Part shown: piece after piece, positions 3,003 to 10,331 of the stretch
Numbering within the stretch: position 1 is the first letter of the stretch
Layout of the letters: every line of letters begins with the position of its first letter
NCBI RefSeq assembly: GCF_002379365.1
Contig: NZ_JQIU01000007.1
Location: 223,679 to 287,678, forward strand
Reading direction: 5' to 3'
DNA from: Brachyspira sp. G79
Lineage (GTDB): Bacteria; Spirochaetota; Brachyspiria; Brachyspirales; Brachyspiraceae
DNA: 64,000 nt
Program-made: the position numbers and the translations under genes
The notes under the pieces: model-generated
What the model saw: only the letters and a program-made list of their open reading frames with translations
Told to the model about the DNA's origin: nothing
The model's database searches: none

Positions 3003-3030
3003 TTGAAATAAAAAGTAATTATGATAAAAT
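3003..3030 (+). promoter_or_regulatory. Candidate promoter of the riboswitch-antiporter transcript
   Basis: TTGAAA (3003-3008) and TAAAAT (3025-3030) separated by 16 nt. Transcription would begin a few bases before the fluoride aptamer and give a leader of about 200 nt. Confidence 0.55.
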
Positions 3031-3043
3031 ATTTCATAAAAAT

Positions 3044-3137
3044 AAGGAATGAGGTCTCCTTAGATTATTTACATTATCAAATAATCAAACCGCTTAATAT
3101 TTATTTCCAGATAAAATATAAAAGCTGATGACTTCTG
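3044..3137 (+). promoter_or_regulatory. Fluoride riboswitch (crcB motif) aptamer
   Basis: The leader carries the conserved fluoride-aptamer pattern in order. P1 is AAGGA (3044-3048) with TCCTT (3057-3061) enclosing ATGAGGTC. Next come AAACCGCTT (3087-3095) and AAGCTGATGACTTCTGC (3122-3138). GCTT (3092-3095) pairs with AAGC (3122-3125), and the signature pseudoknot forms between GAGGTC (3051-3056) and GACTTC (3130-3135), with one G-U pair. The joining loop holds an extra AT hairpin (GATTATTT/AAATAATC), and the stem closed by GCTT/AAGC is enlarged. This recognition is by motif and covariation, not by a computed score. Confidence 0.88.
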
Positions 3138-3185
3138 CAAATTTATGATTTTTTTATGTATTTGCAGACAGCAGTTTTATATTTT
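3113..3185 (+). terminator. Riboswitch expression platform: terminator hairpin
   Basis: TCTGCAAAT (3134-3142) pairs with ATTTGCAGA (3160-3168), extended by GCTG/CAGC (3124-3127 with 3169-3172) and AAAATATAAAA/TTTTATATTTT (3113-3123 with 3175-3185). The 5' arm uses the 3' strand of the aptamer (GCTGATGACTTCTGC), so aptamer and hairpin exclude each other. Fluoride binding would favour read-through into the antiporter gene. Confidence 0.7.
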
Positions 3186-3241
3186 CTAAAATCTTAAATT
3201 CATAATAAAAAATCAAATACTATTAAAAAGGATTTAATCTT

Positions 3242-4432
3242 ATGCTTCTTAGTTTGGCATTAATATTTTTATGCGGAATGCTTTTAGGAAAAATATTTTC
3301 TCTATTAAAACTTCCTTCTCTTTTAGGGCTTATTATAACTGGAATTATATTAGGTCCATATTGTTTGAATTTATTAGACAGTTCAATACTTTCAATATCA
3401 GCAGATTTAAGAGAATTGGCTCTTATTATAATTCTTACGCGTGCGGGTCTTAATCTTGATATAGATGACTTAAAAAAAGTAGGACGTCCTGCAATACTAA
3501 TGTGTTTTCTCCCTGCAAGTTTTGAGATAATAGGAATGGTTTTAATAGCTCCAAAATTTTTTAATATTACTTTATTTGAAGCAGCTTTAATGGGTTCGGT
3601 TGTAGCTGCTGTTTCTCCTGCTGTACTTGTTCCTAAAATGCTCAAACTTATTGATGAAAGATATGGTACTAATAAAAGTATACCTCAATTACTTATGGCA
3701 GGTGCTTCTGTTGATGATATATTTGTAATAGTGTTATTTGCTTCTTTTACTTCCTTAGTTAAAGGCGGAAGTATTTCAGCACTTGATTTTTTGAAAATAC
3801 CTACTTCTATAATATTTGGGCTTTTAATAGGTGTTATAATAGCATTAATACTCACAAAATTTTTCTCACGCTTTCATATAAGAGACAGTGCCAAAGTTGT
3901 TATAATATTAAGTATATCATTTATACTTGTAACAATAGAGAACTCAATCTCAAAATTTTTTAATGGTATTATAGGATTTTCTGGTCTTCTTGCTGTTATG
4001 AGTGTAGGAGCATCTTTAAAAGCTAAAAGATCAGAATTATCAAAAAGGCTTTCTTTAAAATATTCCAAACTTTGGGTAGCTGCTGAAATTATGCTTTTTG
4101 TACTTGTTGGTGCTGCTGTAAATATAAAATATGCTCTCAATACTGGCTTTACTGGTATTTTACTCATATTCGCTGTATTAATTTTTAGAATGCTTGGGGT
4201 TTTGATTTCTCTAATAAAAACTAATTTAAATAAAAAAGAGAGAATATTCAGCATGATTGCCTACTGTCCGAAAGCAACTGTACAGGCTGCAATAGGCTCA
4301 ATTCCTTTATCTTTAGGTTTTGCTTCAGGAGAAATCATACTCACTATAGCAGTACTTGCAATACTTATAACTGCCCCTTTAGGATCTTTTGCAATAGAGT
4401 TTTTTTATAAAAGATTATTAGAGCATGAATAA
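3242..4432 (+). CDS. Monovalent cation:proton antiporter (CPA family), fluoride-controlled
   Basis: 396 residues, almost entirely membrane-embedded (about 11-12 segments), with no cytoplasmic regulatory domain. The sequence has the Na+/H+ exchanger pattern: LLGKIFSLLKLPSLLGLIITG near the start and GASVDDIFVIVLF (about residues 158-170), whose paired Asp is the expected ion-binding site. It should exchange Na+ or K+ for protons across the inner membrane. An AAGGA lies about 9 nt before the ATG. Its only neighbour in the transcript is the fluoride riboswitch, so it is likely induced by fluoride; antiporters are a known minor gene class under this riboswitch. Whether it moves fluoride or corrects ion imbalance during fluoride stress cannot be seen from the sequence. 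Confidence 0.85.
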   Translation: MLLSLALIFLCGMLLGKIFSLLKLPSLLGLIITGIILGPYCLNLLDSSILSISADLRELALIIILTRAGLNLDIDDLKKVGRPAILMCFLPASFEIIGMVLIAPKFFNITLFEAALMGSVVAAVSPAVLVPKMLKLIDERYGTNKSIPQLLMAGASVDDIFVIVLFASFTSLVKGGSISALDFLKIPTSIIFGLLIGVIIALILTKFFSRFHIRDSAKVVIILSISFILVTIENSISKFFNGIIGFSGLLAVMSVGASLKAKRSELSKRLSLKYSKLWVAAEIMLFVLVGAAVNIKYALNTGFTGILLIFAVLIFRMLGVLISLIKTNLNKKERIFSMIAYCPKATVQAAIGSIPLSLGFASGEIILTIAVLAILITAPLGSFAIEFFYKRLLEHE

Positions 4433-4821: not shown

Positions 4822-5586
4822 TTATTCTTCTGCACCCAATTCTTTAAGTTTTTCTATTGCCTCATCTTCATCAGCATAATATAAAACTCCGTCTCCGTCC
4901 TCATCTGTACTATTTATATCAAAACCTAAATCTCTAACTAAATATTCAAATACTTCTGTATTATTATTCAAAGCAGCCATATGAAGACCGTTTGCATCAT
5001 ACATGTTTTTAGAGTTTACAACATCAGGATCAGCCTGCACAAGCATTTTTATTACATCAACATTTCCAGTACCGCAAGCCCATAAAAAGGCATTCCAGCC
5101 GTCATCATCTTTTACGTAAGGGTCTGCTCCATTGTCAAGCAAATATTTCATTATACCTAAATCTCTGTAGAATACGGCAAATATCAAAGGCGTAGCACCA
5201 TTAGCAGCATAACTATCATTCATAAAATCGCTGTATATACTATCATCGCCATAATAAGACTCATCAATATCTTCACCTTCTTCTATCAATTCCATTACTC
5301 TCTTTAAACTATGATTTTCTATAGCCTCAAATATATCATAGTCTTCGCTGTATTCCCCTTCCTCTCTGTTGGCATAGGATAAGGCAGAGTTCATATTAAC
5401 AAATTTGCCCTGTATCTTTACAACATTAGTATAAGTTTTATGATAAATATTATCTGGATTACTTACATACACAGAATTATTGCTTATACTTACACTAACC
5501 TCTTCTTTTTTCTTGCATGATATAATAAAAATAATTGATAATAAAGAAATTAACAATATATTTTTTAAAACTTTTATTCTTTTCAT
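4822..5586 (-). CDS. Ankyrin-repeat lipoprotein, paralogue 1
   Basis: 254 residues from the ATG at 5586, the start that leaves a proper lipoprotein signal (MKRIKVLKNILLISLLSI then IFIISC, Cys about residue 24). A linker is followed by about four ankyrin repeats in the C-terminal two thirds, including NGATPLIFAVFYRDLGIMKY and GLHMAALNNNTEVFEYLV. It is very similar along its whole length to the protein at 6157-6918, with the same signal peptide and the same last repeat. It should sit lipid-anchored in the cell envelope. The ligand is unknown. Its upstream gap is occupied by palindromic repeats. Confidence 0.85.
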   Translation of the reverse strand: MKRIKVLKNILLISLLSIIFIISCKKKEEVSVSISNNSVYVSNPDNIYHKTYTNVVKIQGKFVNMNSALSYANREEGEYSEDYDIFEAIENHSLKRVMELIEEGEDIDESYYGDDSIYSDFMNDSYAANGATPLIFAVFYRDLGIMKYLLDNGADPYVKDDDGWNAFLWACGTGNVDVIKMLVQADPDVVNSKNMYDANGLHMAALNNNTEVFEYLVRDLGFDINSTDEDGDGVLYYADEDEAIEKLKELGAEE

Positions 5587-5657
5587 AAACACCGCCGTAT
5601 AGTAATTAATAATTTGTGAAGTATTATACAATAAAAACAAATTATTTTCTATAAAAA

Positions 5658-6156: not shown

Positions 6157-6918
6157 TTATTTGGCACCAAGTTCTTTTAATTTTTTTATTGCCTCGTCTT
6201 TTTCAGCATAATCTAAAACTCCGTCTCCATCCTCATCTGTACTGTTTATATCAAAACCTAAATCCCTAACTAAATATTCAAATACCTCTGTATTATTATT
6301 TAAAGCAGCCATATGAAGTCCGTTTTCATCATAGACATGTTTAGAATTAACTAAATCAGGATAAAACTTTACAATCATTTTTATTACATCAACATTTCCA
6401 ACAGCGCAAGCCCATAAAAAGGCTTTCCAATTGTAAGGGTAATCATCTTTAGTATAAGGATCAGCACCTTTATCAAGCAAATATTTCATTATACCCAAAT
6501 CTCTATAAAATATAGCAAACATTAAAGGAGTAGCTCCGTCAAGATAATAATAATCATTGAAAAAATCGCTATATTTTCTCTCACCGCTATAAGTTTGATT
6601 TATATCTTCACCTTCTCCTATTAATTCCATTACTCTTTTTAAGCTATGATTTTCTATAGCTTCAAATATATCATAGACTTCGCTGTATTCTCCTTCCTCC
6701 CTGTTGGCATAATAGAAAGCAGAGTTAATATTAATAAATTTACCTTGAATCTTTACAACATTAGTGTAAGTTTTATGATAAATATTATCTGGACTGCTTA
6801 CATACACAGAATTATTGCTTATACTAGCCTCTTCTTTTTTCTCGCATGATGTAATAAAAATAATTGATAATAATAAAGAAATCAATAATATAGTTTTTAA
6901 CACTTTTATTCTTTTCAT
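6157..6918 (-). CDS. Ankyrin-repeat lipoprotein, paralogue 2
   Basis: 253 residues from the ATG at 6918 (MKRIKVLKTILLISLLLSI, lipobox FITSC). The architecture matches its neighbour at 4822-5586: lipoprotein signal, a conserved NSVYVSSPDNIYHKTYTNVV segment, then ankyrin repeats with LDGATPLMFAIFYRDLGIMK. The pair clearly arose by tandem duplication. Differences cluster in the middle of the ankyrin region (residues about 115-175), which fits ligand-surface divergence. The ribosome binding site is weak (GCGGTG). Envelope location is inferred from the lipobox. Confidence 0.85.
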   Translation of the reverse strand: MKRIKVLKTILLISLLLSIIFITSCEKKEEASISNNSVYVSSPDNIYHKTYTNVVKIQGKFININSAFYYANREEGEYSEVYDIFEAIENHSLKRVMELIGEGEDINQTYSGERKYSDFFNDYYYLDGATPLMFAIFYRDLGIMKYLLDKGADPYTKDDYPYNWKAFLWACAVGNVDVIKMIVKFYPDLVNSKHVYDENGLHMAALNNNTEVFEYLVRDLGFDINSTDEDGDGVLDYAEKDEAIKKLKELGAK

Positions 6919-7040
6919 AAACACCGCAATATAGTAATTAATATAATTTGAGATATTATAGCATAATGATTAAAGAATTAAAAATAAAAAAATACCACTC
7001 ATAAAATGAATGGCATTAATTTTCTATTATCAAAAATAAA

Positions 7041-7919
7041 TTATATAGCCTCAGAACCGCCTATAATATCAAGAAGCTCATTAGTAATATGTTCCTGTCT
7101 TGCTCTGTTCGCTTTATTTTTCAAATCAGTAATTAATCTTTCAGCATTATCAGTAGCATTTCTCATAGCAATAGAGCGTTCAGCATTCTCTGATAAAAAT
7201 GAACTTGTAAGCATAAAATAGAAATATGTTTTTATAGCCATAGGCACAATCTCTTTTAATACATCTTCTATATTAGGCTCTATCACATAATCAAGTTTTT
7301 TCTTAATTTTATGACCTTCTATATCCTCTTCATCAGGTATCATAGGTATTAAACTTTTTATTTTAGGTATATGAACCACCCTTGTATAATACCTAGTATA
7401 TATTACTTCAACTCTCGAAGCATTATCCACAGCATATTCATGCATGAAACGCTGAACTACTGTAGCACAGTCATCAAAAGTAGATTCTTCATCTATACGG
7501 GGATATTTTCTAGCTATTGGTATACCTTGCTTTTCAAAATATGCCTCCCCCTTTTTACCAAGCACATGAAGCTGAACCTCTCTTCCATGTCTGTGATGAT
7601 GTCTTATCCTCTCCATAGCCTCATCAAAAATTTTAGTATTATAAGAACCGCACAAACCTCTACTTGAAGTTACAACAAAAAGTATAATATTTTTTATTTT
7701 CTTTTTCGGAGCAAGAAGCGGATGCACATGATCCATATCAGAATGCGAAAGGTCTTCTACTATTCTGTTGAGTTTTTGAGTAAAAGGACGCATACCCTGC
7801 TCTACTGTAAGTATTTTAGCAGTTCTTGAACGTGCTATCATATCCATAGTCTTTGTGATTTTATGTGTGCTTGTTACAGCTTTAATTCTTGCTTTTAATA
7901 CATTAAGTTTCTCTGCCAT
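7041..7919 (-). CDS. atpG: F-type ATP synthase gamma subunit
   Basis: 292 residues from the ATG at 7919 (GGAG 8 nt upstream, 7928-7931). Gamma is the central rotor stalk of F1. The N-terminus (KARIKAVTSTHKITKTMDMI) and the C-terminus (NAERLITDLKNKANRARQEH, ITNELLDIIGG) match the family's two long coiled-coil ends; VTSSRGLCGSYN is the usual Rossmann-like core motif. It follows a glycosyltransferase gene instead of atpA, and no beta or epsilon gene comes after it: the next genes are ankyrin lipoproteins. Confidence 0.97.
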   Translation of the reverse strand: MAEKLNVLKARIKAVTSTHKITKTMDMIARSRTAKILTVEQGMRPFTQKLNRIVEDLSHSDMDHVHPLLAPKKKIKNIILFVVTSSRGLCGSYNTKIFDEAMERIRHHHRHGREVQLHVLGKKGEAYFEKQGIPIARKYPRIDEESTFDDCATVVQRFMHEYAVDNASRVEVIYTRYYTRVVHIPKIKSLIPMIPDEEDIEGHKIKKKLDYVIEPNIEDVLKEIVPMAIKTYFYFMLTSSFLSENAERSIAMRNATDNAERLITDLKNKANRARQEHITNELLDIIGGSEAI

Positions 7920-7934
7920 AATCAAAACTCCAAA

Positions 7935-8804: not shown

Positions 8805-10304
8805 TTAAAACTTAGATTTAAACTCTTCTATAACCTTATAAAGGCCGTCCATATCTTCTATATCTTTTTTCTCTCTAATATTATCAAGTACACTAGGCTT
8901 ATCAGCTTTAATGTATTGTAATAATCTCCATTCAAACTCATGAACTCTGTCAACTTCAATATTATCCAAGAAACCTTTAGTAGCTGCAAATATAACAACA
9001 ACCTGTTCTTCAAAAGGTATAGGACTGTATTGTTTCTGTTTTAATAATTCAACCATTTTAGCACCTCTGTCTAATTGTGCCAAAGTAGCCTTATCAAGCC
9101 CAATACCAAGCTGAGAGAAAGCCTCCAAAGATCTGTAAGAAGCAAGGTCAAGCCTTAAAGTACCAGCAACCTTTTTCATAGCTTTAGTCTGAGCATTACC
9201 GCCTACACGAGAAACGGATATACCAACATCTATGGCAGGACGCACACCGCTCATAAACAAACTGGTAAGCAAATATATTTGTCCGTCAGTAATAGAAATA
9301 ACGTTAGTAGGAATATAAGCTGATACCTCATTATCCTGAGTTTCTATGATAGGAAGTGCTGTTAAAGAACCTCCTCCTAATTCATCACTAAGTTTAGCTG
9401 CTCTTTCAAGAAGTCTTGAATGCAAATAGAAAACGTCTCCGGGAAAAGCCTCTCTTCCGGGAGGTCTCCTAAGAAGTAATGATATCTGCCTATAAGCATT
9501 AGCTTGTTTAGTTAAGTCATCATATATTATTAAAGTATCTTTTTTCTGCTCATACATAAAATATTCAGCCATAGCACATCCTGCATACGGAGCTATATAA
9601 AGAAGCGGAGCAGAATCAGCTGCAGTAGCTGCAACTACTATAGTATAATCCAATGCCCCATGCTGTCTTAATGTATCAACAACACCTGCAACAGTGGAAG
9701 CCTTTTGTCCGATAGCTACATATACACATATTACCCCAGTACCTTTTTGATTAATTATCGCATCAAGAGCAATGGAAGTTTTACCAGTACCTCTGTCACC
9801 AATAATAAGCTGTCTTTGACCTCTTCCTACAGGAGTCATAGAGTCAATAGCTTTAATACCTGTCTGAAGCGGCTGTTTTACCGCCTGCCTATCAGCAATA
9901 CCAGGAGCTGGAAACTCTATCACTCTTCTTTTATCGGTAGTAACTTCACCATGTCCGTCTATAGGTACCCCCAAAGGATTAACAACTCTTCCTAAAAGAG
10001 CTTCCCCTACTGGAACTTCTAATATTCTTTTAAGTCTGCTAACTTTACTTCCCTCTTTAATGCCGTAATAATCGCCCAAAACTATAGCACCGATAGTTTC
10101 TTCTTCCAAGTTAAAAGCAAGTCCTACCGCACCGCTTTCAAAAAGTATCATCTCATTAGCCATAACATGCGGAAGTCCAATTACTCTTGCAATACCGTCT
10201 CCTACTTCTACAACTACCCCTACTTCATTCGGAGTAAAATCAGCTTTATAATTCTTAATCTCTTCTTTAAGAACTGCTGCAATTTCACTAGCTTTTATAT
10301 TCAT
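8805..10304 (-). CDS. atpA: F-type ATP synthase alpha subunit
   Basis: 499 residues from the ATG at 10304 (GGGGAA just upstream). Alpha forms the non-catalytic nucleotide sites of the F1 hexamer. The Walker A is [15 protein letters not shown], followed by [20 protein letters not shown] and [20 protein letters not shown], all standard. The N-terminal beta-barrel ([18 protein letters not shown]) and C-terminal helical domain are complete. It sits after the second delta-like gene with a gap of about 28 nt. Confidence 0.98.
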
Positions 10305-10331
10305 AATCAATTCCCCAAATGTAAAATATAA

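Follow-up and report, generated by a model that had tools for sequence, protein, structure and literature searches.

Fluoride riboswitches of the crcB RNA type typically overlap transcription terminators, implying that their ligand induces the genes downstream (PMC2864571). Fluc/CrcB and CLC-F, transporters under their control, as a rule occur one type per genome, and their protein folds are unrelated to that of cation/proton antiporters. Bacteria with neither are usually classed as being without fluoride export, and the Spirochetes have been named among them; fluoride stress has also been linked to pH, and among the gene classes that fluoride riboswitches control, Na+/H+ antiporters rank second in frequency (PMC11139923). 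In C. difficile, for instance, CD0656-7 is an operon under a fluoride riboswitch that combines a CLC with an NhaP-type antiporter (PMC11477304).

Here we analyzed a 64-kb stretch of Brachyspira DNA (the window), in which a riboswitch-like leader precedes a cation/proton antiporter gene. An earlier note on this sequence had presented the antiporter as an unusual target for such an RNA, which was overstated: given the rank of antiporters among fluoride-riboswitch genes and the C. difficile example, the pairing is of a known kind and the target is not exotic. Both the RNA and the broad transporter superfamily are the same as in the described cases. However, whereas C. difficile combines a CLC and an antiporter in an operon, the Brachyspira locus is a single gene in a genome with no recognized exporter. 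The less expected part, and the one worth following up, is this exporter-free setting together with the mutual exclusion of the antiporter and CrcB described below. In a limited literature search, covering few subscription papers, neither a fluoride riboswitch from Brachyspira nor a fluoride exporter with the CPA fold turned up.

The leader RNA and its conservation in Brachyspira

The Rfam gathering score of RF01734 (crcB RNA motif) is 34 bits, and at the gathering threshold Rfam gave no match over the whole 64-kb window. Running the RF01734 model on the leader, as the earlier note had proposed, did give a full-length match at 3036-3144 (+), covering all 64 model positions with E 3.2e-7 in a focused scan of 311 bases, but its 31.8 bits fell below the cut-off. 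Across the 3.29-Mb genome this was the top RF01734 match (E 7.9e-7) and is the sole convincing copy; the runner-up, on contig C8, reached 17.4 bits and was regarded as noise; a gathering-threshold scan of L002 was empty. Weak matches to other Rfam families (a CRISPR repeat and a miRNA), also in the leader, were dismissed at E > 0.4. Three congeners scored above the cut-off, at 45.0, 39.9, and 35.6 bits, and the low score of the window aptamer is probably caused by its two AT-rich inserts, one of 25 nt between P1 and AAACCGC and one that enlarges the P3 loop to about 24 nt. The window RNA is a divergent member of a known riboswitch class. The parts of the locus, all on the + strand, are as follows.

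3003..3030 (+), likely promoter: TTGAAA, 16 nt, TGA-TAAAAT (extended -10); consensus scan 10/12, such sites occurring in this region at chance level
3044-3048/3057-3061 (+), aptamer P1 hairpin AAGGA/TCCTT; RF01734 alignment, near-invariant over 20 aligned species
within 3044..3061 (+), P1 loop ATGAGGTC, holding the 5' pseudoknot strand GAGGTC at 3051-3056; RF01734 alignment
3062..3086 (+), 25-nt insert between P1 and AAACCGC, with an 8-bp AT hairpin at 3063-3070/3079-3086; comparison of 21 species
within 3087..3125 (+), joining segment AAACCGC at 3087-3093; RF01734 alignment
within 3087..3125 (+), P3, GCTT at 3092-3095 with AAGC at 3122-3125, enclosing an enlarged AT-rich loop of about 24 nt; RF01734 alignment
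within 3124..3135 (+), conserved segment GCTGATGAC at 3124-3132; RF01734 and species alignments
within 3124..3135 (+), 3' pseudoknot strand GACTTC at 3130-3135; RF01734 alignment
3116..3188 (+), alternative terminator-like hairpin (3116-3182) with U-rich tail; predicted, MFE -20.2 kcal/mol
3225..3234 (+), Shine-Dalgarno-like AAAAAGGATT, about 40 nt past the alternative hairpin and outside it; from the sequence
3242..4432 (+), NHA2/SLC9B2-like cation/proton antiporter of 396 aa; PF00999, 155.7 bits

The earlier note had described a fluoride riboswitch with all conserved segments, a GAGGTC/GACTTC pseudoknot, and AT-rich inserts, and each of these was recovered. P1, AAACCGC, GCTGATGAC, and P3 were all located, the RF01734 segments AACCGC and GCUGAUGAC were both found in the alignment, and the two pseudoknot strands can form six pairs, one of them G-U. 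Like other members of the class, the leader is also predicted to have an overlapping, mutually exclusive hairpin. It differs from them in the 25-nt hairpin insert, the long P3 loop, a weak, AT-rich P3 of only four pairs, and the sub-cut-off score.

A score under the Rfam cut-off could mean that the RF01734 match is a chance hit, or a decayed relic, in AT-rich leader DNA. Comparison with congeners makes this extremely improbable. The aptamer was found directly 5' of the antiporter gene in 21 of the 22 Brachyspira species whose leader could be read; in the exception (G019), the gene lies close behind another reading frame and has no aptamer. Over 20 aligned species the aptamer core is near-invariant and the inserts vary. 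The insert between P1 and AAACCGC is present in 21/21 species with lengths of 21-44 nt, and in 20 of them no more than one of the 8 pairs of its hairpin is lost, the closing pair being G-C, G-T, or A-T. This conservation in 21 species excludes a chance match; in addition, the next genome match reached just 17.4 bits, and clostridial homologs carry over-threshold copies in the same place. A few substitutions preserve pairing: L056 (G021) has P3 as GCCT/AGGC instead of GCTT/AAGC, a two-sided change at one pair, and in L051 (G018) the pseudoknot G-U becomes A-U. Being few, such changes support rather than prove the proposed aptamer pairs. Judged from these sequence features, the leader RNA is very probably a fluoride switch.

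The mutually exclusive hairpin claimed in the earlier note was likewise predicted, at 3116-3182. Since it takes up the 3' strand of P3 and, at its end, that of the pseudoknot, its formation is predicted to exclude the aptamer. The window leader folded more stably than 200/200 shuffled sequences (z-score -3.2), and a hairpin of the same design, followed by a U-rich stretch, was predicted in 21/21 Brachyspira species at -20 to -32 kcal/mol. It is worth noting that the hairpin is AT-rich and its U-tract imperfect, part of it lying inside the stem. A strict terminator scan did not report it, because of its low GC content and long loop; termination is therefore a prediction. In the proposed mechanism, the nascent leader would refold into the 3116-3182 hairpin when fluoride is absent, and transcription would stop; Mg-bound fluoride would keep P1, P3, and the pseudoknot in place and so block the hairpin, and the antiporter would be made.

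The same weaknesses of the hairpin, namely its AT-rich stem, imperfect U-tract, and absence from the strict scan, would also be compatible with an aptamer that controls translation instead of transcription. We consider this improbable, because the Shine-Dalgarno sequence forms no part of the hairpin, which ends about 40 nt before it, because the hairpin and the U-rich stretch after it are kept in all species, and because overlapping terminators are typical for crcB RNAs (PMC2864571). The leader, as a fluoride riboswitch, very probably acts as an ON-switch at the level of transcription, its response to fluoride and the termination step both being predicted. Outside the aptamer, the block TTGAAATAAAAA...TATGATA(A/G)AAT was maintained across Brachyspira leaders, and the Shine-Dalgarno sequence was kept as AAAAAGGAT in their alignment.

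The antiporter and the known fluoride exporters in Brachyspira

As the earlier note had stated, the ORF at 3242-4432 encodes a cation:proton antiporter. Its nearest solved structures are human NHA2 (SLC9B2, PDB 7b4l; E 7e-39) and bison NHA2 (E 3e-37), and the best Foldseek matches of an AlphaFold model (pLDDT 81.6) were also NHA2 (E 1.7e-16, TM 0.78). Residues D158, D159, R316, and E95 align with D278, D279, R432, and E215 of the 7b4l chain, and the ion-site residues E95, V124, S125, D158, D159, R316, and T346 are conserved across 94 bacterial homologs, apart from one D159N. Compared with NHA2/SLC9B2 (7b4l, 7p1i), the window protein is about 30% identical and has the same fold and ion site, including the R-E pair and the DD motif; it differs in having Y341 in place of W457 (Y in all 94 aligned bacterial homologs), in lacking the N-terminal extension, and in being encoded by a bacterial gene under probable fluoride control. 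The gene product is very likely an NHA-type antiporter. NHA2 performs electroneutral Na+/H+ exchange and has a specific R-E salt bridge (PMC8850199), so the natural prediction is electroneutral Na+(Li+)/H+ exchange of the NHA2 type, and the protein is probably such an exchanger.

The antiporter gene was present in 24 of 26 Brachyspira genomes, one copy being a fragment. Named Brachyspira records contain homologs with 87-97% identity, and that of B. innocens is the closest (97%), in agreement with the animal-associated spirochaete suggested in the earlier note. Two copies look broken or partial: G020:C147:480-1667 has an internal TAA, and G012:C52:33766-34185 is a C-terminal fragment. In the window the gene is flanked by ankyrin-repeat genes at 830-2920, 4822-5640, and 6157-6924 (all -), of which the last two are near-duplicates of each other.

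A profile search for CrcB/Fluc (PF02537), with controls positive in 10/14, detected none in the 26 Brachyspira genomes, that is, neither in the window's own genome nor in its 25 congeners. One CLC type was found in Brachyspira, present in 23/26 genomes. The signatures of CLC-F are GNNLI or GMGLI, GREGT/V, and GEVTP (PMC11139923), whereas the own-genome CLC (G000:C8:1264153-1265166) has GAGVP, GRAGP, and GGVFFP, and all CLCs read (this one and those of 10 congeners) carry GAGVP/GRAGP/GG(V/I)FFP. With the CLC-F signatures missing, the own-genome CLC was ruled out as a CLC-F, and the claim that no usual exporter gene is at hand held, for CrcB in the genome and its 25 congeners and for CLC-F in the genome and the 10 congeners read. 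In these Brachyspira CLCs the motif GRAGP has an Ala where the gating glutamate would be, so that they would be expected to behave as channels and not as proton-coupled transporters.

Clostridial homologs and their relation to CrcB

Clostridial homologs are about 47-68% identical to the Brachyspira antiporter. In four sets of them, the aptamer was found upstream of 14/18, 17/18 (plus one sub-threshold), 8/9, and 17/28 genes. None of the 18 genomes of the first set contained CrcB, 7 of the 18 clostridial genomes had neither CrcB nor any CLC, and the antiporter had no recurrent operon partner. One clostridial antiporter gene is preceded by two tandem fluoride aptamers (L180, 1276-1350 and 1411-1483).

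Co-occurrence was then counted in two clostridial families of 149 and 250 genomes, 399 in all. The antiporter was found in 102/399 genomes and CrcB in 65/399, and the two were never found together, against 16.7 joint occurrences expected. The exclusion appeared in both families: in the first (antiporter 37/149, CrcB 19/149) the overlap was 0 against 4.7 expected, and in the second (antiporter 65/250, CrcB 46/250) 0 against 12.0, with P values of 0.003 and 2e-7, respectively, which are nominal because the sampled genomes are related. No completeness values accompanied the genomes. Genes absent from incomplete assemblies would lower both counts and could not alone create exclusion. Many clostridial genomes carry neither gene. 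Three genomes with a canonical CLC-F (44-47% identical to 6d0j) had neither antiporter nor CrcB, and two of these CLC-F genes have an aptamer upstream, one just under the cut-off. In a control comparison, a GREGA-type CLC co-occurred with the antiporter or CrcB at the chance rate. This CLC clade (L103-L113), with GTNxV/GREGA/GGEIVP-type motifs, occurs widely within one clostridial family, and among solved structures its members matched only CLC-F. GREGA CLCs were also considered as candidate hidden fluoride exporters; their motifs differ from those of CLC-F, and their co-occurrence with CrcB and the antiporter is at chance.

In a FastTree phylogeny, the Brachyspira antiporters, including that of G019, grouped as a single clade (0.999) within the clostridial sequences (0.869); deeper branching was poorly resolved, and Brachyspira were the only spirochaetes sampled. 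This tree fits one transfer event in which the gene came from gut Clostridia together with its aptamer, which G019 would have lost afterwards.

Possible roles of the antiporter in fluoride tolerance

HF enters cells by diffusion, and F- is trapped inside in proportion to the pH difference. In the explanation that we favor, the antiporter would fill the role of Fluc/CLC-F in Brachyspira and in many Clostridia of the gut, as the principal transporter that fluoride induces, swapping H+ for a cation and moving no fluoride itself; such exchange would either dissipate the pH difference that traps F- or dispose of the acid that HF brings in. To this explanation as a whole, an ON-switch governing an exchanger that stands in for an exporter, we assign a probability of about 0.6; both transport and its direction are what we infer. 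The ion-exchange route to fluoride tolerance put forward in the earlier note remains a hypothesis, but one strengthened by the mutual exclusion with CrcB. That exclusion suggests that the antiporter substitutes for a fluoride exporter, which we consider rather probable, and is not a mere assistant. The intact NHA2 ion site, in turn, argues for cation/H+ exchange over F- transport, and exchange is in our judgment the likelier mode of action.

The literature interprets Na+/H+ antiporters linked to this riboswitch as accessories (PMC11139923): HF acidifies the cell, the antiporter only restores pH and cation homeostasis, and fluoride leaves through an unrecognized exporter or stays. The C. difficile operon, in which an antiporter is paired with a CLC (PMC11477304), fits such a role and indicates that antiporter and exporter are not always alternatives, provided that the C. 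difficile protein is of this subfamily. An accessory antiporter should, however, co-occur with exporters, yet no genome combined it with CrcB where 16.7 were expected, and this makes an accessory role alone doubtful.

Another reading is that these NHA2-like antiporters, linked to fluoride riboswitches in Brachyspira and gut Clostridia, export fluoride themselves, coupled as F-/H+ or F-/cation exchange. They would then form a third bacterial exporter class, built on the cation/proton antiporter fold, as an alternative to Fluc and CLC-F. Several findings point this way. Most antiporter homologs are riboswitch-linked, compared with about 15% of Flucs and about 30% of CLC-Fs, and the lack of any co-occurrence with CrcB in 399 genomes resembles the near-exclusive distribution of Fluc and CLC-F (PMC11139923). 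The absence of a recurrent operon partner and the 7/18 clostridial genomes without CrcB or any CLC are in line with this. Nevertheless, the NHA2 cation/proton site (D158, D159, R316, E95, T346) is intact, no anion-favoring residue was identified, and for Cl- transport, as proposed for Drosophila Nha1, residue changes in human NHA1 gave no support (PMC9174904). We therefore treat fluoride export by the antiporter as a tentative and rather unlikely alternative, and cation/H+ exchange in place of an exporter as the preferred explanation.

The antiporter is retained by almost every Brachyspira and was not seen with CrcB in any of the 399 clostridial genomes, which suggests another way of surviving fluoride. 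Whether it is an exporter or a regulator of the pH difference that traps F-, either answer would clarify why antiporters rank second among fluoride-riboswitch genes. Anion activity in the NHA2 family, if true, would be relevant beyond bacteria, NHA2 being a human transporter.

Elsewhere in the window, a Core-2/I-branching glycosyltransferase gene (PF02485; 7935-8801, -) lies inside the F1 ATP synthase cluster, between atpG (7041-7925) and atpA (8805-10310), the latter two being named from their translations.
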